Origin: Nipponacmea schrenckii
Lineage: Eukaryota > Mollusca > Gastropoda > Lottiidae
Reading direction: 5' to 3'
Length of the DNA stretch: 64,000 nt
NCBI GenBank assembly: GCA_030562195.1
Contig: JAUJPP010000012.1
Coordinates: 22,320,001-22,384,000 of the forward strand
The notes under the pieces were generated by a model. That model ran no database searches, was not told the DNA's origin, and worked only from the letters and a program-made list of their open reading frames with translations. Position numbers and translations under genes: made by a program. Every line of letters starts with the position of its first letter. Positions within the stretch are counted from its first letter, which is position 1. Of this stretch, positions 8,812 through 57,005 are shown piece after piece.

Positions 8812-8890
8812 GTTTCCCATCATGCCACCCTAACCCGTGTAGAAATGGAAGTACGTGTAAATCTCGGAATAGCGGTGAAAGTTATTGTTT
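8812..8890 (+). CDS. Notch: Notch exon 2: EGF1 (first four cysteines)
   Basis: It encodes the rest of codon 21 through two bases of codon 47. The translation contains CHPNPCRNGSTCKSRNSGES followed by YC, giving cysteines 1-4 of EGF repeat 1 (residues 25, 30, 36 and 46). CRNGSTC fits the O-fucose consensus C-x4-S/T-C. EGF1 lacks the D/N-x-D/N-E/Q start of calcium-binding repeats, as in other Notch proteins. The acceptor is TTTCAG and the donor is GTAAGT. The exon is 79 nt, enters in phase 1 and leaves in phase 2, which from memory matches exon 2 of vertebrate NOTCH genes (79-82 nt). Confidence 0.9.
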
Positions 8891-8927
8891 GTAAGTAGCT
8901 CTTCTTTTTATCTCTCTTGTCCACCTC

Positions 8928-9340: not shown

Positions 9341-9700
9341 GTCCTGATGATGATTGTGTATCAGAAACACATGTGCTTACACTCAGTGCTATATTTCATT
9401 TTCTAAAACTAGCTGTCCTGGTATATAAGATTTATTGACCTGATGAGGGTTGTGTATCTGAAACACATGTTGACTGCATACTGACAGTCAAGTAGCATTC
9501 CAAACAATTCCATTTCTATGATCTATCTGTCCTGATGAGGATTGTGTATCTGAAACACATACTGACTGCATGAGATGAGCTCTAGTCAATTACCTAACAT
9601 TAAGTCCTATATTAGAAGGTTTAACTCCAATTCTAAAACTAGCTGTCCTGATGAGGGTTGTATATCTGAAAACACATGTTGACTGCAATTTAGCTCAAGT
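9341..9700 (+). ncRNA. Hammerhead ribozyme repeat, locus A (four units)
   Basis: Four units contain the core CTGATGA (9344, 9440, 9532 and 9648), a 4-bp stem II closing a 5-nt loop, then GAAA. Unit 1 has stem II TGAT/ATCA but ends in GUG, which is not cleavable. Unit 2 has GGGT/ATCT, GAAAC, loop ACAT and GUU, with cleavage predicted after 9471, but an insertion of about 20 nt separates AGCTGTC from its core. Unit 3 has ACT in place of GUU. Unit 4 has an extra A (GAAAA). The conserved catalytic positions are those of the hammerhead consensus. Unit 2 is the most likely of the four to retain activity, and all look partly decayed. Confidence 0.6.
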
Positions 9701-10152: not shown

Positions 10153-11630
10153 ATCTAGGCAGGTGCTTCTTTAGGACAGTATCTCTTATAACTAGGCCAG
10201 TGTTTCTATAGGAGAGTTTCTCTTATAACACCTAATACTTGTGACCTAGGCCAGTGCTTCTATAGGAGAGTATCTCTTATAACTAGACCAGTGCTTCTAT
10301 AGGACAGTATCTCTTATAACACCTAATACTTGTGACCTAGGCCAGTGCTTCTATAGGAGAGTATCTCTTATAACACCTAATACTTGTGACCTAGGCCAGT
10401 GCTTCTATAGGAGAGTATCTCTTAAACTAGGCCAGTGCTTCTATAGGACAGTATCTCTTATAACACCTAATACTTGTGACCTAGGCCAGTGCTTCTATAG
10501 GACAGTATCTCTTATAACTAGACCAGTGCTTCTATAGGACAGTATCTCTTATAACACCTAATACTTGTGACCTAGGCCAGTGTTTCTATAGGAGAGTATC
10601 TCTTATAACACCTAATACTTGTGACCTAGGCCAGTGCTTCTATAGGAGAGTATCTCTTATAACACCTAATACTTGTGACCTAGGCCAGTGCTTCTATAGG
10701 AGAGTATCTCTTATAACAACTAATACTTGTGACCTAGGCCAGTGCTTCTATAGGAGAGTATCTCTTATAACAACTAATACTTGTGACCTAGGCCAGTGTT
10801 TCTATAGGAGAGTATCTCTTATAACACCTAATACTTGTGACCTAGGCCAGTGCTTCTATAGGAGAGCATCTCTTATAACACCTAATACTTGTGACCTAGG
10901 CCAGTGCTTCTATAGGAGAGCATCTCTTATAACACCTAATACTTGTGACCTAGGCCAGTGCTTATATAGGAGAGCATCTCTTATAACACCTAATACTTGT
11001 GACCTAGGCCAGTGCTTCTATAGGAGAGCATCTCTTATAACACCTAATACTTGTGACCTAGGCCAGTGCTTCTATAGGAGAGCATCTCTTATAACACCTA
11101 ATACTTGTGACCTAGGCCAGTGCTTCTATAGGAGAGCATCTCTTATAACACCTAATACTTGTGACCTAGGCCAGTGCTTCTATAGGAGAGTATCTCTTAT
11201 AACAACTAATACTTGTGACCTAGGCCAGTGCTTCTATAGGAGAGTATCTCTTATAACACCTAATACTTGTAACCTAGGCCAGTGTTTCTATAGGAGAGTA
11301 TCTCTTATAACAACTAATACTTGTGACCTAGGCCAGTGCTTCTATAGGAGAGTATCTCTTATAACAACTAATACTTGTAACCTAGGCCAGTGCTTCTATA
11401 GGAGAGTATCTCTTATAACAACTAATACTTGTAACCTAGGCCAGTGCTTCTATAGGAGAGTATCTCTTATAACAACTAATACTTGTAACCTAGACCAGTG
11501 TTTCTATAGGAGAGTATCTCTTATAACAACTAATACTTGTAACCTAGGCCAGTGTTTCTATAGGAGAGTATCTCTTATAACAACTAATACTTGTGACCTC
11601 GGCCAGTGCTTCTATAGGAGTGTATCTTCT
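10153..11630. repeat. 54-bp minisatellite, 29 units
   Basis: The unit contains TAGGCCAGTGCTTCTATAGG, AGAGTATCTCTTATAACACC and TAATACTTGTGACC. I count 29 units. From about 10525 rightward the spacing is a regular 54 bp. Near the left end several units are about 36 bp because the ACCTAATACTTGTGAC part is missing. Variants such as GAGCATC for GAGTATC cluster in neighbouring units (10860-11170), consistent with local unequal exchange. Confidence 0.95.
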
Positions 11631-12860
11631 TGTAAATGAATACAAAAATTTTATGTAATTGTTTGAAAAATGGAGCCTATGCCTATAAATTTTGTCATTG
11701 AGTAGCAGGGAACTGAGCTAGAAATTTTGTAAATAAAAAATGGATACACAAAACATGTGCTTGTTTGAAAATCATCCAAATTTTATTACTCGAAAGAATT
11801 ATTGAAAATAAATAAACAGGAAATTCTCAAGAAAACTGTCGTTAACCTTTCAACAAGATGGCTACCAGCCAAATATAGTGATTTTCAAATCTACAATTAG
11901 TATTACATGAAGTTTTAGATGAATGAAGATCTATCTTATTTTTTTTATTGGACTTTATTGTGGCTTATCCTTTCCATGATTGGCAGTTAGATGATACAAC
12001 AGTTGTGAAGTTTTGAGTTTTATTATGGTTTCTGTGGATTCTTCTCCGTCCTCATTTGCCGCTACAGGTGCAGGATGTAAAACTCGATTCATTTCAACAG
12101 ATAGAGTTTTCCATTATTGTGGACTGAAATCGCTGGAAAAAGAGGTCTATGTAATGAATTCTGCTCCTCTGATTTTTGTCCGTCTGCCAAGATAGTGAAA
12201 TCTCCCGCCAAAATATTTCTCATTTAGGTGTTGATGAAGGTATATTAATATAGAGATAATTGCGATTCTAACAGCCAATAACTTCTGATACCAATTCTAC
12301 GGAGGTCTGTGTAAATCAACGTGGAATTTTGATGACACTTTTATGCAGACGGCAAAGAATTTTTAAAAAGCGTGCCAAACATGTGGTGTTCCTGATAAAA
12401 TATGAGAGGAACCGTATCCAAGTATAATATTTTAGTCTGGACGCCTACTTGTGTTGATCGAAATCAGAAACATTAAGACATCAGATGTCAAGATGGAGGA
12501 CAGAATCTGTGGGCAAAGTTCTTTTGGATGCAGAATCTGAAGATGTTTTCGTTCTACAGAATAATTGGATTGGATAATGGTAAAAATTGATTATAGTGAT
12601 TGACCAATCAGATAACATTAAAATTATAGAAATAGTTTTCAAGATTGAAGAGCTTGGAAAGACCTTCTCTACAGATTTTCAGTCCTGTCGCCCCCTTTTC
12701 AACCCTTTTAACCCCAAAGTGAGGGAATGGGATCATGCCCCCTAGTAAAAAATATATTGGCCCCCCTACTCTGTTTCCTAGAAACAGCCCTTACCCACTA
12801 ACTGTCCTCTCAAATCCCTTCAAAATACACCACTCCTTACCCCCCTTTCCTCCCCCCCCC
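11631..12860. other. Intron 2 stretch without clear features
   Basis: AT-rich sequence. Apart from a SINE-1 tail remnant near 12066-12100 and C-rich tracts near 12690-12860, I recognise nothing here. Confidence 0.5.
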
Positions 12861-14583: not shown

Positions 14584-15759
14584 CTCTGGATTATATTTTG
14601 GTTAAGTTTTCAAGAATAAAGTCCCTGTTAAAAGAACGAATATTTTTGTCCCAACTACAAGTCAGACTGTATGAATTGTATGTGTTTAACGAACAGATGA
14701 AATATGTGCCGAACATGACTTGACGGAATGTTGCTATCGGTTACAAACAATGTTAAACTTCTCAAACCAAACCTCTACTTTTGGTTTTGTTGTAATGGAG
14801 TGAAAACACAGTTTTGGAAGTTTCATCTTTTTCTATTAGTGTTTTTTATGTTGAAATCACTGTAAGGGCAATGCAATTTTAATTCCATGGCCAGTCCCTT
14901 CGAGACTTTTCTAATCAGAGTCAGCTTTCAACAGACAGTCTGCACATAATATAATTTAAAAAATGTCTGATACAATAGCGAGTCCTTGCAAGAATAAATC
15001 TTAAAATAAAAAGTAATTTAAATTTTGATCCTTGCAATTCTTTTTTTTCTAAATTTCTACCCATTCACCTAGCAGACGACATTCCATCACTATAATATTT
15101 ATTTGATGTTACCACTTAATTCAGCAGGTGAAACTGAAATTTTGAATGTAATATTACTGACTGACAGGTGTTTTATTAAAAAAGTAACAAATTCAAATAA
15201 AAGATAGCATTGAGATATAAAAAATGACACCAAACTCAATTTCATCAAATAATTTCAACTGGTGAGCCACCATTTTGAATGCAAACAAAAGCAGAAAGAG
15301 AGAAATCGTGTACCATAACAATTTTAATCAGATTTGAAAATTTGAACATGTCATTGGAAAGATGTGAAGGCATCTGTTCAATTTTCTGTCATATGTTATT
15401 AAGGGGTCAAGGGTCACCCCAGGGGTCATAGGTTACAGGTGGGGGACAAAATGAACAAGGTGCTCTGTGATTGGTTGAAGATGTCAGGTGTTCAGAGATG
15501 ACAGGTGTAAATTGTAGCGGTGAAACTACTGTTAAAAGAGGGTTGTTATCTTGGTTGAATGTTTGCATACCTTTAATATAGCGTCTGGGACAAAGAAGGT
15601 TCTTTTGACAGGTCTTCTAAAATGTTTGCCTTCATTTAGATTCTTAAAAGTAACGTGCATTGTAAAATATTTGTATGTAGGAATTTTTCTTCTCTTAAGT
15701 AAAGAATGTTGTTTATAGATGTAAAGGTCTATATTGTATTTTAAGTCCTTGTAAAAACT

Positions 15760-15803
15760 GGCTGTCCTGATGAGGATTGTGTGTCTGAAACATGTCAACA
15801 GCT
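15760..15803 (+). ncRNA. Hammerhead ribozyme B1 (type I, minimal)
   Basis: Core C3-A9 is CTGATGA at 15767-15773. Stem II is GGAT/GTCT (with G-U pairs) around loop TGTGT. GAAA is at 15787-15790. Stem III is only two pairs (A-U and C-G) around AT. The cleavage triplet is GUC, with the cut predicted after 15796. Stem I pairs GCTGT (15761-15765) with ACAGC (15798-15802), five Watson-Crick pairs plus a flanking G-U, with a C/A mismatch next to the cleavage site. The stem III sequence ACATGT is self-complementary, so two copies could form a dimeric hammerhead. All nucleotides required by the consensus are present; activity is inferred. Confidence 0.72.
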
Positions 15804-15858
15804 TGAGATGAGCTCATTAAGTCAAATTTCGAAAAAATTAAGCCCAATTTTCAAAACT

Positions 15859-15901
15859 AGCTGTCCTGATGAGGATTGTGTGTCTGAAACATGTCAGCAG
15901 T
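15859..15901 (+). ncRNA. Hammerhead ribozyme B2
   Basis: Second unit, 99 nt after B1. Core CTGATGA is at 15866-15872, stem II GGAT/GTCT around TGTGT, GAAA at 15886-15889, then CATGTC with cleavage predicted after 15895. Stem I pairs GCTGT (15860-15864) with GCAGT (15897-15901) through three Watson-Crick and two G-U pairs. The catalytic residues are intact. Confidence 0.7.
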
Positions 15902-15972
15902 AAGAGTTGAAATCTATTCAATTATCTAACATTAAGTTCTATATTACAAAGTTAACCTCCATTTCTAAAACA

Positions 15973-16016
15973 AGCTGTCCTGATGAGGATTGTGTATCTG
16001 AAATGTGTCAGCAGCA
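15973..16016 (+). ncRNA. Hammerhead ribozyme B3
   Basis: Third unit, 114 nt after B2. Core CTGATGA is at 15980-15986, stem II GGAT/ATCT around TGTGT, GAAA at 16000-16003, then TGTGTC with cleavage predicted after 16009. Stem I pairs GCTGT (15974-15978) with GCAGC (16011-16015) through four Watson-Crick pairs and one G-U. Stem II carries A-U where B1 and B2 have G-U, so the pairing is kept while the sequence changes. Confidence 0.7.
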
Positions 16017-16175
16017 TGAGATGAGCTCTAGTTGATAAGTCCTATATTGGAATGAAAACACCAATTTCTAAAACAAGCAGTCCTGATGAGGATTGTGTAT
16101 CTGAAACACATAATGAGTTAGTTAGTTAAGAAACTTAACCTCCATTTCTAGACATGTCCTGATGTAAATTGTGAA

Positions 16176-17100
16176 GAAATTTGTATGTAATTGAACAAAC
16201 TTAAACAGTATCGTTACCTTTCCCCCTCCCTCTCTACCTCCCTCACATCTCCACCCCTAGGAATGTTCAGTGGCACACCTGTAGCTATGAATCTGACCCT
16301 TTAAGCTGTCAGTGTCACCCTAAATTATTTGTTTAAATTAAGTTTTTACATTTTTTTTTTAATTGATTTACACAAAAAAACTGCCACCTCTGGGTTTCAA
16401 AAATTACTTAATCTAAACAAAATGGATTGAAAAAGAGACCCTTTGGGGTTCAATATATGTTTAATTACTCAATTCATTTATTGAAAAAATGCTACCCCAC
16501 AGGCTTAGGGGTGTGGCAGTTAATTTATATGTAAGTTTACAGGTGTTAAGAATAAAACAAAACATAGGTATCCCCTAGGGCCCTAATGTTCAGTGTCCCT
16601 TTTTTTATTTACCTAGCTTTCTTTAAAAATACCACCCACAGGCCAAGGGGTGTGCACCAATCTGTATGTAATTAACAAGTGTTTTAGCATGGAAAACAAA
16701 TGTTACCCTTCAGGGGCCCAAACATTGGGTCTATTATGACGTGCCCCAGGCAAACCTCATCAACTTTAACAATAGTTTTACAATTGATTTAGTTAAGAAA
16801 TCACACTACAAGTGGCAACCTTATGTAACATACAAACACCAACAAAACAGAATTTTAATGGTCTTTAATTGTGTACAAGGGTAACCCTGTTAACTATTTT
16901 ATCAACTTTCTGATTTTTAGTCCAACATTCTTAGTTCCTAAAATCACTTTTGCAAAAACCTAGGAAACAGCTTCTTTAAACTAGAAGTAGCAAGCATGGC
17001 CATATTGTTTTAAGCCTTTTTGTTAAGTTTTCTGATTGGATATATTGCTTATGTTTTAATCCAATTAAAACACTTACAAATTTGTATAAAAAAAAATGTC
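16176..17100. other. Intron 2 stretch without clear features
   Basis: AT-rich sequence with C-rich patches (16220-16260). Weak repetition of a 'CCACAGGC...GGGGTGTG' motif occurs near 16495 and 16633. No gene is recognised. Confidence 0.5.
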
Positions 17101-17824: not shown

Positions 17825-17884
17825 ATTGAGTGGCCTTGTCCATCTTTATAAAGCCAAAATCAGCTGGATTTAAAACTTTATCTT

Positions 17885-18420
17885 TCTTTTTGTATTTCAT
17901 TATGTTTCTTTCCATATTTCATTATGTTTCTTTCCATATTTCATTATGTTTCTTTCTATATTTCATTATGTTTCTTTCTATATTTCATTATGTTTCTTTC
18001 TATATTTCATTATGTTTCTTTCTATATTTCATTATGTTTCTTTTTTGTATTTCATTATGTTTCTTTCTATATTTCATTATGTTTCTTTCTATATTTCATT
18101 ATGTTTCTTTCTATATTTCATTATGTTTCTTTTTATATTTCATTATGTTTCTTTCTATATTTCATTATGTTTCTTTCTATATTTCATTATGTTTCTTTCT
18201 ATATTTCATTATGTTTCTTTTGTATTTCATTATGTTTCTTTTATATTTCATTATGTTTCTTTCTATATTTCATTATGTTTCTTTCTATATTTCATTATGT
18301 TTCTTTCTATATTTCATTATGTTTCTTTTTTTTCATTATGTTTCTTTCTATATTTCATCATGTTTCTTTTTGTATTTCATCATGTTTCTTTTTATATTTC
18401 ATTTTGTATTTCTTTATTTT
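17885..18420. repeat. 22-bp pyrimidine-rich satellite, about 24 copies
   Basis: The unit TTTCTTTCTATATTTCATTA plus TG is repeated with small length changes. No frame contains a stop codon in the unit, so long artificial frames of 178-201 codons cross it. Peptides such as YISLCFFLYFIMFLS are translations of the satellite and not a membrane protein gene. Confidence 0.95.
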
Positions 18421-22192: not shown

Positions 22193-22429
22193 TGTGTATC
22201 AGAGACACTGAAATCATCAATTTACACCATTCCAATTTTCAGTTTGATGTCTGTGGTTCCTGTAATTCCACTATAACTAAGTCTTTGATGACCTCACTTA
22301 TCTCTTTATTTGATACAAGCATATTTTGACGTCATTAAACTCTTCAGTATGTTGGATTGCAGGAACCACAGATGTCTGATTGAAAATTGGAATGGTGCAA
22401 ATTGATGCTATCAGTGTTCCTGATACACA
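22193..22429. mobile_element. Foldback (long inverted-repeat) element
   Basis: The left arm 22193-22270 and right arm 22353-22429 are near reverse complements over about 77 bp. The left arm reads TGTGTATCAG, CCATTCCAATTTTCAG, CTGTGGTTCCTG; the right arm reads CAGGAACCACAG, CTGATTGAAAATTGGAATGG, CTGATACACA. The spacer of about 80 bp has no coding potential. Other members of the family are at 42393-42520 and 57255-57560. Confidence 0.75.
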
Positions 22430-23060
22430 TTCCAAATTTTGAAACCCCTTGACAATCTCTTTAACCACAGACTCCTGATTGAAAATTAGAATGGTGCAAA
22501 TTGATACTATCAGTGTTCCTGATACACATTCAAAATTTCGAAACCTCTTGACAATCTCTTTAACCACAGACTTCTGATTGAAAATTAGAATGGTGCAAAT
22601 TGATGCTATCAGTGTCTCTGATACACATTCCAAGTTTCGAAACCTCTTGACAATCTCTTTTACTACAGATGTCTGATTGAAAATTAGAATGGTGCAAATT
22701 GATGCTATCAGTGTTCCTGATACACATTCAAAATTTCGAAACCTCTTGACAATCTCTTTAACCACAGACTTCTGATTGAAAATTGGAATGGTGTAAATTG
22801 ATGCTATCAGTGTCTCTGATACACATTCCAAGTTTCGAAACCTCTTGACAATCTCTTTTACTACAGATGTCTGATTGAAAATTAGAATGATGCAAATTGA
22901 TGCTATCAGTGTTCCTGATACACATTCAAAAACTAGAAAACCTCTTGACAATCTCTTTTACTACAGATGTCTGATTGAAAATTAGAATGATGAAATTGAT
23001 GCTATCAGTGTTCCTGATACACATTCAAAAATTAAAACCTCTTGACAATCTCTTTAATAT
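22330..23060. repeat. 99-bp satellite derived from the foldback right arm
   Basis: Seven units are spaced by exactly 99 bp, measured at TCAGTG (22411, 22510, 22609, 22708, 22807, 22906 and 23005). Each contains CTGATTGAAAATTAGAATGG, CAGTGTTCCTGATACACATT and CCTCTTGACAATCTCTTTA. The first unit is itself the right arm of the foldback element. Since 99 is divisible by three, a 217-codon minus-strand frame with 33-residue repeats runs through it; I regard this as a by-product. Confidence 0.92.
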
Positions 23061-36530: not shown

Positions 36531-36667
36531 ATGTACAAATGAAAATATTGGAGAATATTGTCAGGATGCCAACCCTTGTCGAGGAAGTTACTGTATGAAC
36601 AATGGGGACTGCAGGGTTGTTGAATCCGGAGGTGGTCAAATGAAAGCGGTCTGTACATGTAAAATAG
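36531..36667 (+). CDS. Notch: Notch exon 3: end of EGF1 and EGF2
   Basis: It encodes the last base of codon 47 to the first base of codon 93. The translation begins with CTNENIGEYC, supplying the last two cysteines of EGF1 (residues 48 and 57). EGF2 follows, with cysteines at 63, 68, 74, 88, 90 and 99 (the last in exon 4). The long loop between its third and fourth cysteines (VVESGGGQMKA) matches the extended loop of Notch EGF2. The third cysteine is preceded by D, so EGF2 lacks an O-fucose site. The acceptor is ATTTCAG and the donor is GTAGGT; the exon enters in phase 2 and leaves in phase 1. Confidence 0.92.
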
Positions 36668-36925: not shown

Positions 36926-37060
36926 GATTCAGTGGAATGATGTGTGAATTTGTGGACCCAAAAAGTGCCTGTTACAGAAATCGCTGTCAAAATGGAGGAA
37001 CCTGTCTGAATGGAGACTCTCTGTCAGTTTTCAGCTGCAAGTGTATGCCTGGTTACAGAG
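36926..37060 (+). CDS. Notch: Notch exon 4: end of EGF2 and EGF3
   Basis: It encodes the rest of codon 93 through the first base of codon 138. It starts with GFSGMMC, closing EGF2, and contains EGF3 cysteines 108, 113, 119, 130 and 132; the sixth (141) is in exon 5. CQNGGTC fits the O-fucose consensus. The intron before it is only 258 nt and ends CATAG. The donor is GTAAGA. Both flanking introns are phase 1. Exons 3 and 4 together give 272 nt, close to the single 260-nt exon 3 I recall for human NOTCH1. Confidence 0.92.
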
Positions 37061-41164: not shown

Positions 41165-41800
41165 CCTTCTAGGACAGTTGGATAGCTTGGTGGGTAGTGA
41201 GTGGGGTTGTTGTCTGCTAGGACAGTGGAATAGATGGGTGGGTAACAAGTTGGATTGTCCTCTGCTAGAACAGTGCAATAACTCAGTAGTGAGTTGGATT
41301 GTCGTCTGCTAGGACAGTAGAATAGATGGGACGGTAGTGAGTTGGATTGTCATCTGCTAGGACAGTGGAATAGATGGGTGGGTAGAGAGTTGGATTGTCA
41401 TCTACTAGGACAGTGGAATAGCTTGATTTGTAGTGTGTTGGACTGTCATCTGCTAGGACAGTAGAATAGATGGGACGGTAGTGAGTTGGATTGTCATCTG
41501 CTAGGACAGTGGAATAGATGGGTGGATAGAGAGTTGGATTGTCATCTACTAGGACAGTGGAATAGCTTGGTTTGTAGTGTGTTGGACTGTCGTCTGCAAG
41601 GACAGTGAATAACTCAGTGGGTAACAAGTTGGGTTGTCATCTGCTAGGACAGTGGAATAGATGGGTGGGTAGAGAGTTGGATTGTCGTCTGCTAGGACAG
41701 TGGAATAGTTCAGTGGGTAACAAGTTGGGTTGCCATCTGCTAGGACAGTAGAATAGCTCGCTGGGTAGTGTGTTGGACTGCCGTCTGCTAGCCATCATTT
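41165..41800. repeat. 48-bp minisatellite, about 13 copies
   Basis: The unit CTGCTAGGACAGTGGAATAG plus ATGGGTGGGTAGTGAGTTGG plus ATTGTCAT repeats every 48 bp (for example at CTAG 41169, 41217 and 41265), with one 44-bp unit. Because 48 is divisible by three, a 114-codon minus-strand frame (VLADDNPTHYRPIYST repeated) crosses it; there is no other support for a protein. Confidence 0.93.
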
Positions 41801-54079: not shown

Positions 54080-54135
54080 CTCATCTCATGCTACTGACAT
54101 ATGTTTCAGATACACAATCCTCATCAGGACTTCCA
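54080..54135 (-). ncRNA. Hammerhead ribozyme unit, locus C (antisense)
   Basis: On the minus strand: CTGATGA (54127-54121), stem II GGAT/ATCT around TGTGT, GAAA (54107-54104), then C, loop ATAT, GUC, with cleavage predicted after 54096. The catalytic core is complete, but stem I (GAAGTC against AGTAGC) pairs poorly. A GAGATGAGCTC linker follows. A single unit, opposite to Notch transcription. Confidence 0.55.
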
Positions 54136-55319: not shown

Positions 55320-55580
55320 AGAGAGGATATCTCATGTTACTGACATATGTGTTTGGGATACACAATCCTCATCAGGACTTCTAGTTTCTAGAAATATAGG
55401 AATTAATGTTAGCTAATGGACTAGAGCTCATCTCATGTTACTGACATGTTTCAGATACACAATCCTCATCAGGACAACTAGTTTCTGTAGGAATTAATTT
55501 TAGCTAATTGACTAGAGCTCATCTTAAACTTGTAAGTTTTAGATAAGCAATCCTCATCTCAAAACTCGGGACAACTAGTT
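55320..55580 (-). repeat. Hammerhead-bearing repeat, locus D (three units, antisense)
   Basis: Reading the minus strand, units have cores near 55550 (decayed), 55472-55466 (intact) and 55375-55369 (GAAA changed to CAAA, probably inactive). The linkers match loci A and B (GAGATGAGCTCTAGTC, AATTCCTATATTTCTAGAAA). The spacing of the two clear cores is 97 bp. Confidence 0.75.
55437..55478 (-). ncRNA. Hammerhead ribozyme D2 (antisense to Notch)
   Basis: Core CTGATGA is at 55472-55466 on the minus strand, stem II GGAT/ATCT around TGTGT, GAAA at 55452-55449, then CATGTC with cleavage predicted after 55443. Stem I pairs GTTGT with GTAAC by three Watson-Crick and two G-U pairs. The U-A pair at the second-outermost position of this stem replaces the C-G pair of the intron 2 copies, so both strands changed while pairing was kept. 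A transcript from the minus strand would be needed for it to act. Confidence 0.62.
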
Positions 55581-56127
55581 TTAGTGGAAGAAATTTAGGC
55601 ATAAGCTTATTATGAGCAAGAAATTGCATTCACAATATTTAATGAAATATACCCCTTAAATCTCCCTACAAAATAATGAGTGAGAAAGGGGAATCTGTCA
55701 TAACTTTCTTTATAAATTATTAACTTATGACAAATATGTCATTTTACTCAAAGTAGCTTGAATGTGTGGATTATTTTTCAGGATTCTTCTTTTTAAATTC
55801 ATTGTATAATGACAAATTTTCGAATGACCCTTCCTAAATTTGATTCTAATTTCCACCCTAAAATCATGTTGACTCATAATTCAATAAAAAGGAGGGGGCG
55901 TCCATTTTCTTTGTGTCTTGAAATTTAGGGCTCAGTCAACTGTAACAGAGAAGATAAAAAAAAATAAAATCTTTGATTGAATGAAATGAAAATTCTTTAC
56001 CTGTTTCATATCTTTTCTCACCATCTTCAAGTTTTTATCCTATTTATTTTCTCTCTATATGACATGTGGATTACATGTTCAAGATAAGATATGATAAATT
56101 ACAAGACAAATATACACATAGTAAAAT
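55581..56127. other. Intron 6 stretch without clear features
   Basis: AT-rich sequence; nothing recognised. Confidence 0.5.
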
Positions 56128-56792
56128 GTACAGAAGGGATAGATTAAATGTACAGAAGGGTCAGATATGATTAAAATGTACAGAAGGGACAGATATGATT
56201 AAAATGTACAGAAGGGACAGATATGATTAAAATGTACAGAATGAGAGATATGATTAAAATGTACAGAAGGGACAGATATGATTAAAATGTACAGACATGA
56301 CAGATATGATTAAAATGTACAGAAGGGACAGATATGATTAAAATGTACAGAAGGGACAGATATGATTAAAATGTACAGAAGGGACAGATATGATTAAAAT
56401 GTACAGAATGACAGATATGATTAAAATGTACAGACATGACAGATATGATTAAAATGTACAGACATGACAGATATGATTAAAATGTACAGAAGGGACAGAT
56501 ATGATTAAAATGTACAGACATGATATGATTAATTACGAAGGACGATTGATTAAAATGTACAGAAGGGACAGATATGATTAAAAACAGAAGGGACGGATAT
56601 GATTAAAATGTACAGAAGGGACAGATATGATTAAAAACGGGACGGATATGATTAAAATGTACAGAAGGGACAGATATGATTAAAATGTACAGAAGGGACA
56701 GATATGATTAAAATGTACAGAAGGGACAGATATGATTAAAATGTACAGAAGGGACAATATGATTAAAATGTACAGAAGGGACAGATATGATT
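56128..56792. repeat. 28-bp minisatellite, about 24 copies
   Basis: The unit is AAAATGTACAGAAGGGACAG plus ATATGATT, with variants such as ACATGACAG and a few shortened units near 56520-56645. The right end runs directly into a SINE-1 copy. Confidence 0.95.
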
Positions 56793-57005
56793 AGGTACGC
56801 TTCCATTGACTTGATTCTCCAAGGTTCAATCCAAACAAAGGTCGCAATGAACTTTCATATATATCAATGTTAAAGATCCCTTGAGGTGCTGTGCTGGTAG
56901 AATTCCTCTCATTGTTGACTGTATAGAGTGTCCTGTCTATATTAGGCCATAAGGTGCAGAAGAGTAGGACGTAAAACTCCATTCATTTTATTTCATTTCA
57001 TTTGC
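56793..57005 (+). mobile_element. SINE-1, internally deleted, box B retained
   Basis: CTCCAAGGTTCAATCCAAAC keeps box B (GGTTCAATCC), followed by AAAGGTCGCAATGAAC. The body resumes at GTTAAAGATCCCTTGA and the tail is complete (GTGCAGAAGAGTAGGACG, TAAAACTCCATTC). Confidence 0.78.

Follow-up and report, generated by a model that had tools for sequence, protein, structure and literature searches.

A dispersed hammerhead-like tandem repeat with copies in a Notch intron of the gastropod Nipponacmea schrenckii

Introduction

The original papers on the minimal type I hammerhead ribozymes of Penelope-like elements (PLEs) and Terminons are reportedly those of Cervera and de la Pena in 2014 and of Lunse et al. 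in 2017. PMC7761336 describes minimal type I hammerheads as scattered through the genomes of many animals and as arranged in tandem in the pseudo-LTRs of PLEs, where cleavage possibly takes place in dimers. One PLE ribozyme that has been studied cut only in the presence of protein, and cleavage was unneeded for insertion in vitro (PMC11167929). In animal retrozymes, according to PMC7229834, type I hammerheads cut the RNAs of tandem repeats; the axolotl motif HHR_Amex1, whose helix III is one pair closed by a palindromic tetraloop, is much more active in dimeric form. Dimer action requires a palindromic loop III together with tandem motifs (PMC6466107).

We describe here a repeat found in the window (the whole stretch of DNA analysed, 64 kb long), where four tandem units, B1 to B4, lie in an intron of Notch. 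They resemble the PLE and Terminon hammerheads, as PMC7761336 presents these, in being minimal, in having no proper helix III, in occurring both in tandem and dispersed, and, for B1 and B2, in having a palindromic helix III that would suit dimers. Unlike those hammerheads, most copies here have G-U at 10.1-11.1 and A-C at 1.1-2.1, the arrays showed no protein-coding sequence, and no PLE carrying the family's hammerhead was found, the sole PLE-like locus read being L078. As in the animal non-LTR retrozymes of PMC7229834, tandem repeats with a type I motif, from dimers to many-mers, are dispersed in the genome and have no LTR, and HHR_Amex1 shares with B1–B3 a helix III of one pair; the units, however, are typically 87 or 114 nt long, whereas those of retrozymes span 150–450 bp. 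Type I motifs are also found in introns of the amniote genes RECK and CTCL, where they are thought to derive from retroelements, but those motifs are conserved between species (PMC6155905) and the units in the Notch intron are degenerate repeats.

Tandem units in the Notch intron

An exon at 8812–8890 (forward strand) encodes part of the first EGF module (EGF1) and is followed by a donor site, GTAAG, at 8891. Joined in frame to the next exon, at 36531–36667 on the same strand, which encodes the end of EGF1 together with EGF2 and closes the array-bearing intron, it gives CHPNPCRNGSTCKSRNSGESYCLCTNENIGEYCQDANPC..., and the joined peptide has four PDB matches at E≤1e-10, all of them Notch1. Since the flanking exons join in frame as EGF1-EGF2 and match Notch1, B1–B4 (15761–16106) and a second array, A (9344–9671, forward strand, four units starting at 9344, 9440, 9532 and 9648), lie in sense orientation in one 27.6-kb intron. 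The first-pass annotation had called it Notch intron 2; that it is a Notch intron is borne out, but the ordinal is only plausible, exon 1 being unlocated. More EGF-coding stretches follow downstream at 36991, 37702 and 39774, and the stretch around 37702 has Delta-like 1 as its best match (8.2e-30) and Notch1 as its second (2.6e-29). No prior report of a ribozyme in a Notch intron was found in the titles and abstract openings of the papers listed by a search of open-licence literature, which is weak evidence of absence.

The same annotation described three consecutive hammerheads in sense orientation, and sequence, coordinates, order and strand of three tandem units all agree with this. In each of B1–B3, CTGATGA is followed by a 13-nt stem-loop II, GAAA, three bases and GTC, and GCTGTC, 5′ of CTGATGA, pairs with the bases 3′ of GTC at five of six positions. 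The 5′ half of B1 (15761–15802, forward strand) comprises the stem I 5′ strand (15761–15766), CTGATGA (15767–15773), stem-loop II (15774–15786) and GAAA (15787–15790), and its 3′ half CAT (15791–15793), GTC (15794–15796) and the stem I 3′ strand (15797–15802); an A-C mismatch at 1.1-2.1 precedes five Watson-Crick stem I pairs. B2 (15860–15901, forward strand) has CTGATGA at 15866–15872, GAAA at 15886–15889, GTC at 15893–15895 and the stem I 3′ strand at 15896–15901, the mismatch at 1.1-2.1 being followed by five stem I pairs, two of them G-U. The corresponding parts of B3 (15974–16015, forward strand) are CTGATGA at 15980–15986, GAAA at 16000–16003, TGT at 16004–16006, GTC at 16007–16009 and the stem I 3′ strand at 16010–16015, again with the 1.1-2.1 mismatch and then five pairs, one of them G-U. 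The predicted cleavage triplet GTC ends at 15796 in B1, 15895 in B2 and 16009 in B3. Unit B4 (16083–16106, forward strand) retains the CTGATGA..GAAA core, with GTC gone and CACATAAT next, and a remnant of a fifth core (TGTCCTGATGTAAATTGTG) follows on the same strand at 16155–16173. Elsewhere in the window a lone dispersed unit lies antisense to Notch at 54104–54127 on the reverse strand, which also carries two detected units at 55352–55375 and 55449–55472, with a more decayed unit just upstream on that strand.

A strict descriptor (CTGATGA, four stem II pairs, GAAA, GTH and five stem I pairs at positions 2–6) matched the 64-kb window at 15767, 15866 and 15980 on the forward strand and at 55472 on the reverse strand, and nowhere else; 60 first-order random 64-kb sequences gave no match. 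Eleven sites of the window fit the looser pattern CTGATGA-N13-GAAA, 10 of them exactly and one with a single mismatch, where 2.3 were expected, and none of 100 shuffles reached 11. The core letters, the GUC triplet and the type I order attributed to B1–B3 are thus present. The repeat might nevertheless be a plain minisatellite, or a repeat internal to a transposon, whose likeness to a hammerhead is due to chance; the window holds many further minisatellites, as this reading would have it, but the failure of the full descriptor to occur in any of the 60 random windows argues against it, and with the evidence given below we consider it rather unlikely.

We note that the Notch intron also contains a 54-bp minisatellite at 10518–11635 (20.7 copies, 97 % matches), which is open across 373 codons, its unit being a multiple of three. 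Other long minisatellites of the window are at 56122–56793 (28/56-bp units), 41169–41791 (48/144), 22364–23057 (99) and 17878–18407 (22). The observed/expected CpG ratio of the window is 0.39 at 33 % GC, which fits a genome losing CpG through methylation.

Pairing, folding and covariation

The claim that B1–B3 are intact, with every nucleotide that the hammerhead consensus requires, is too strong, and they are probably better described as weakened hammerhead-like copies. In each of the three units A faces C at 1.1-2.1, leaving stem I not closed there, pair 10.1-11.1 is G-U in a stem II of four pairs, and helix III is a single A-U pair with a 4-nt loop; with CAT or TGT before GTC, a second helix III pair would require a loop of two bases. 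The helix III sequence is self-complementary in B1 and B2 (ACAUGU) and reads AUGUGU in B3. Among 60 distinct units of the family, 1.1-2.1 is C-G in 14, and 10.1-11.1 is G-U in 43, G-C in eight, A-U in one and unpaired in eight. Natural hammerheads with U-U at 10.1-11.1 and with weak helices III are known (PMC3088659), and the weak pairs of B1–B3 are thus compatible with activity.

Covariance models, proposed by the first-pass annotation as a check, did not recognize the units. Rfam gave no hammerhead in the whole window at the gathering thresholds and none in 15600–16300 at E≤10, the models being uncalibrated here on known minimal hammerheads. None was found at E≤10 in nine loci (seven array loci and the two window flanks), nor at E≤5 in twelve loci with fuller patterns, in a scan that lay outside L065–L077. 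A genome search with Hammerhead_1 gave no match in the 73 of 44609 candidates scored and is uninformative, as control genomes were also without a match. The sole Rfam matches in 15600–16300 up to E 10 are to three C/D-box families (best E 0.072). This would suit a C/D-box-like RNA in which CTGATGA is box C and CTGA is box D, both selected for protein binding, although the best match, at 20.3 bits, stays below the gathering score of 40 and the conserved block continues past the D-like box as far as GTC; such an RNA seems to us very improbable.

Predicted folding energies, which exclude tertiary contacts, are unfavourable to the hammerhead. For the 42-nt units B1–B3 the hammerhead fold has energies of +0.8 to +1.9 kcal/mol against minima of −7.8 to −10.3, that is, about 9–12 kcal/mol above the predicted minimum, and for the internal 42-nt consensus it is +2.2 kcal/mol. 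Dimer hammerheads of B1, of B2 and of the internal consensus are at −12.2 to −15.0 kcal/mol, with minima of −22.2 to −27.0. Fuller units of other loci give −3.8 against a minimum of −8.3 kcal/mol (L075), −2.5 against −8.3 (L062) and −1.5 against −6.3 (L068), and the last unit of L053 gives +5.9 against −5.2. A GUCCU-GAUG-AGGAU hairpin competes with the hammerhead fold and is favoured.

No covariation was detected in a chosen set of 40 distinct units, where the score was 0.206 compared with 0.230 in shuffles (480 of 500 at least as high) and 79.5 % of cells were paired compared with 80.1 %. This set consists of 39 of the 62 distinct strings and one unit of L051, the other 23 strings having no usable GTC/GTT or being another repeat, near-duplicates or odd single variants. 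Nor was there covariation among all 60 usable distinct family units from the window and L031–L077 (0.187 against 0.204 in shuffles, of which 468 of 500 were at least as high; 78.3 % of cells paired against 78.9 %). When the set was restricted to the 17 units that have G at 1.1, the score was 0.239 against 0.228, and 171 of 500 shuffles equalled or exceeded it. When partners were slid by one or two bases, 33–50 % of cells paired, a weak comparison since the structure was derived from the same sequences. The lack of an Rfam score and of covariation, together with the favoured hairpin, speaks for a chance likeness.

Core conservation and fuller relatives

In 49 diverged units the 35-base core has a mean of 5.35 edits and the 35-base spacer 9.41, the core having fewer in 36 units and more in 12; in all 130 units with both parts the means are 2.48 and 3.89, with fewer core edits in 55, more in 34 and ties in 41. 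This comparison is biased towards the core, through which 131 of 144 units were found. The cores of B1, B2, B3 and B4 have 2, 1, 2 and 4 edits and their spacers 10, 6, 9 and 11. A second subfamily (F2, the 89-nt units of L053) has 33 of 35 core bases identical to those of the main one (F1), whereas in local alignment the spacers of the two score no better than shuffled sequence (P 0.48), and the identity between F1 and F2 ends at the predicted cleavage base C17. That a block common to unrelated spacers should end at this base counts against a likeness arising by chance.

Some relatives also supply features missing from B1–B3 (C at 11.1, G at 1.1 or a longer loop III), and this again weighs against the chance reading. 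The pattern CTGATGAG..CGAAAC..GTC occurs at 15 places among the matches listed and at one in the control, and these places merge to 13 sites, of which eight belong to the hammerhead-like family and five to another repeat. GTCG after the core was found at 14 places among the matches listed and at none in controls, in a set of which at least one (C703) is the other repeat and the relation of L072 is not clear. In the array-end unit of L075 (CATGTGTCGGCAGT) and in that of the forward strand of L062 (CAGCAGTCGATAGT), stem I is paired at all six positions, 1.1-2.1 included; the two arrays neighbour each other, less than 1 kilobase apart.

We tested the idea that the units are merely canonical hammerheads decayed at CpG. 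None of the 47 distinct units from the first 30 loci has C at 11.1 and most have A at 1.1, so that decay following insertion can account for them only in part; fuller relatives, as described above, do exist. A second repeat family, GGATGGCA-CTGATGAGAATTCTATAATCGAAACACAGTC with near variants, fits the canonical pattern and is present at L056, L058, L060, L063 and L064.

Genome-wide dispersal

With two mismatches or fewer allowed, the 24-nt core has 345 forward and 419 reverse matches in the genome (764 in all), counts that are lower bounds and that include some matches twice, contig C3 being doubled in the assembly; the reversed-pattern control had no match in the genome, and the exact core had none in viral contigs. 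We note that C3 has 59,252,672 bases, or 2 × 29,626,336, and that matches recur at that offset and inflate its counts. Of 100 core places listed, 67 are covered by 16 regions; the remaining 33 all fall in the second half of C3 and were set aside as copies. The arrays stand alone and have from 1 to about 40 units each, spaced mostly by about 80–130 nt and most commonly by 87 and 114; a 70-nt spacer query gave 156 matches in the genome, with 40 of 115 candidates scored. The family is therefore dispersed tandem DNA on both strands and not a feature of Notch, and because the motif is such a repeat its location in Notch looks incidental.

A transposon body shared around the arrays was considered and rejected, since the 19 array-bearing sequences have nothing in common immediately next to the arrays; repeats of other kinds, scattered at a greater distance in the flanks, are common to up to 11 of the 19. 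Among 34 detected groups, 17 have a right array end no more than 37 nt from the start of the core, and 15 have a left end no more than 10 nt away, a set that includes L060 (the other repeat) and L044 (one long array split in three) and in which divergence shortens some extensions.

Near-identical 114-nt units were listed mostly in the outer parts of contigs of known length: C12 at 23.85–25.42 of 25.52 Mb, C9 at 41.6–42.4 of 42.77 Mb, C3 at 28.5–28.8 of its 29.63-Mb unit and C1 at 0.6–1.0 of 13.34 Mb. Many such units are also present in C14 at 22.0–23.3 Mb, and C7 at 12.39 Mb is a possible exception to the outer location.

The statement that each unit could cut the Notch pre-mRNA is weakly supported: the units are in sense orientation in the intron, but weak pairs, unfavourable folds and the want of an Rfam score or covariation stand against it. 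Were B1–B3 active and co-opted, they would cut within the intron and modulate splicing or output of Notch. Their orientation would suit this, as would the cores that B1–B4 have kept while their spacers diverged, and the tandem order and palindromic helix III of B1 and B2 are what dimeric hammerheads require according to PMC6466107. Yet the mismatch at 1.1-2.1, the wobble at 10.1-11.1, the unstable helix III and the poor fold energy all tell against co-option, as do the loss of GTC from B4 and the scattering of the same repeat over both strands and the whole genome. We hold co-option to be a very slight prospect, and the repeat's dispersal on both strands and genome-wide led us to reject a Notch-specific regulator as the first choice.

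Origin of the family and its array ends

A derivation of the motif from a hammerhead is fairly well supported by sequence comparison: the full core with its pairing did not occur in random sequence, the core outlasts the spacer and is kept across the unrelated spacers of F1 and F2, fuller relatives exist, and arrays often end at the module. The reading that we prefer, at a probability of roughly 0.65, is of a non-autonomous tandem repeat, akin to PLEs or retrozymes, in which B1–B4 are minimal type I hammerheads that have decayed or depend on dimers, with cleavage as a prediction. B1–B4 would then represent a single copy of a non-coding tandem repeat that is dispersed in the genome, has units of typically 87 or 114 nt and conserves a minimal type I hammerhead motif as its module, and their sense orientation in the big Notch intron would be due to chance. 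The family may have spread through RNA and reverse transcription, its RNA being trimmed by the hammerhead, and a PLE enzyme would be the most likely mobiliser, such ORFs being abundant in the genome. Units of the internal type, B1–B3 included, have neither a stable helix III nor the 1.1-2.1 pair. Any cleavage by them would probably be inefficient and would take place in two-unit dimers, through the self-complementary helix III sequence ACAUGU that B1 and B2 have. An effect on Notch splicing would not be implied.

Matches to the GIY-YIG domain number 150 of the 150 scored, out of 1144 candidates, many with equal scores and in long ORFs, C3 being counted twice. One 756-aa Penelope-like ORF (L078:954–3224) has a GIY-YIG match above the cut-off and a match to RVT_1 (reverse transcriptase) below it; at this PLE-like locus, the only one read, neither the loose pattern nor Rfam found a hammerhead. 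The genome thus contains a plausible mobiliser, which may be tied to the arrays.

The ends of arrays may differ from their interiors. G or A-A follows GTC in 6 of 23 last units and in 2 of the 94 units that lie further in (Fisher P 7e-4), and G at 1.1 alone is found in 3 of 23 and 1 of 94 (P 0.024); the arrays were not selected on this feature, although the grouping is post hoc and units within the same array depend on one another. The remaining 17 of the 23 last units have neither G nor A-A after GTC. In the L053 subfamily (F2), loop III is two bases longer in the last unit than in inner units. One doubtful possibility is a retroelement of two states, in which the internal units would be crippled by a loop III two bases shorter and by the 1.1-2.1 mismatch, leaving the array RNA in one piece, and a fuller 3′-terminal hammerhead would set the 3′ end of the element, with insertions ending at its stem I. 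The pairing of a fuller 3′-terminal hammerhead with weakened internal ones, as the unit sequences suggest it, may be a new detail.

If the units of this family are active, they would add an unusually short tandem hammerhead repeat to the known kinds, and would offer within one genome a series from fuller to decayed units for the study of minimal hammerheads as dimers and in retroelements. As a probable relic of a mobile element in the intron of a famous gene, the array of B1–B4 also shows how easily such a sequence can pass for a regulator of the gene.
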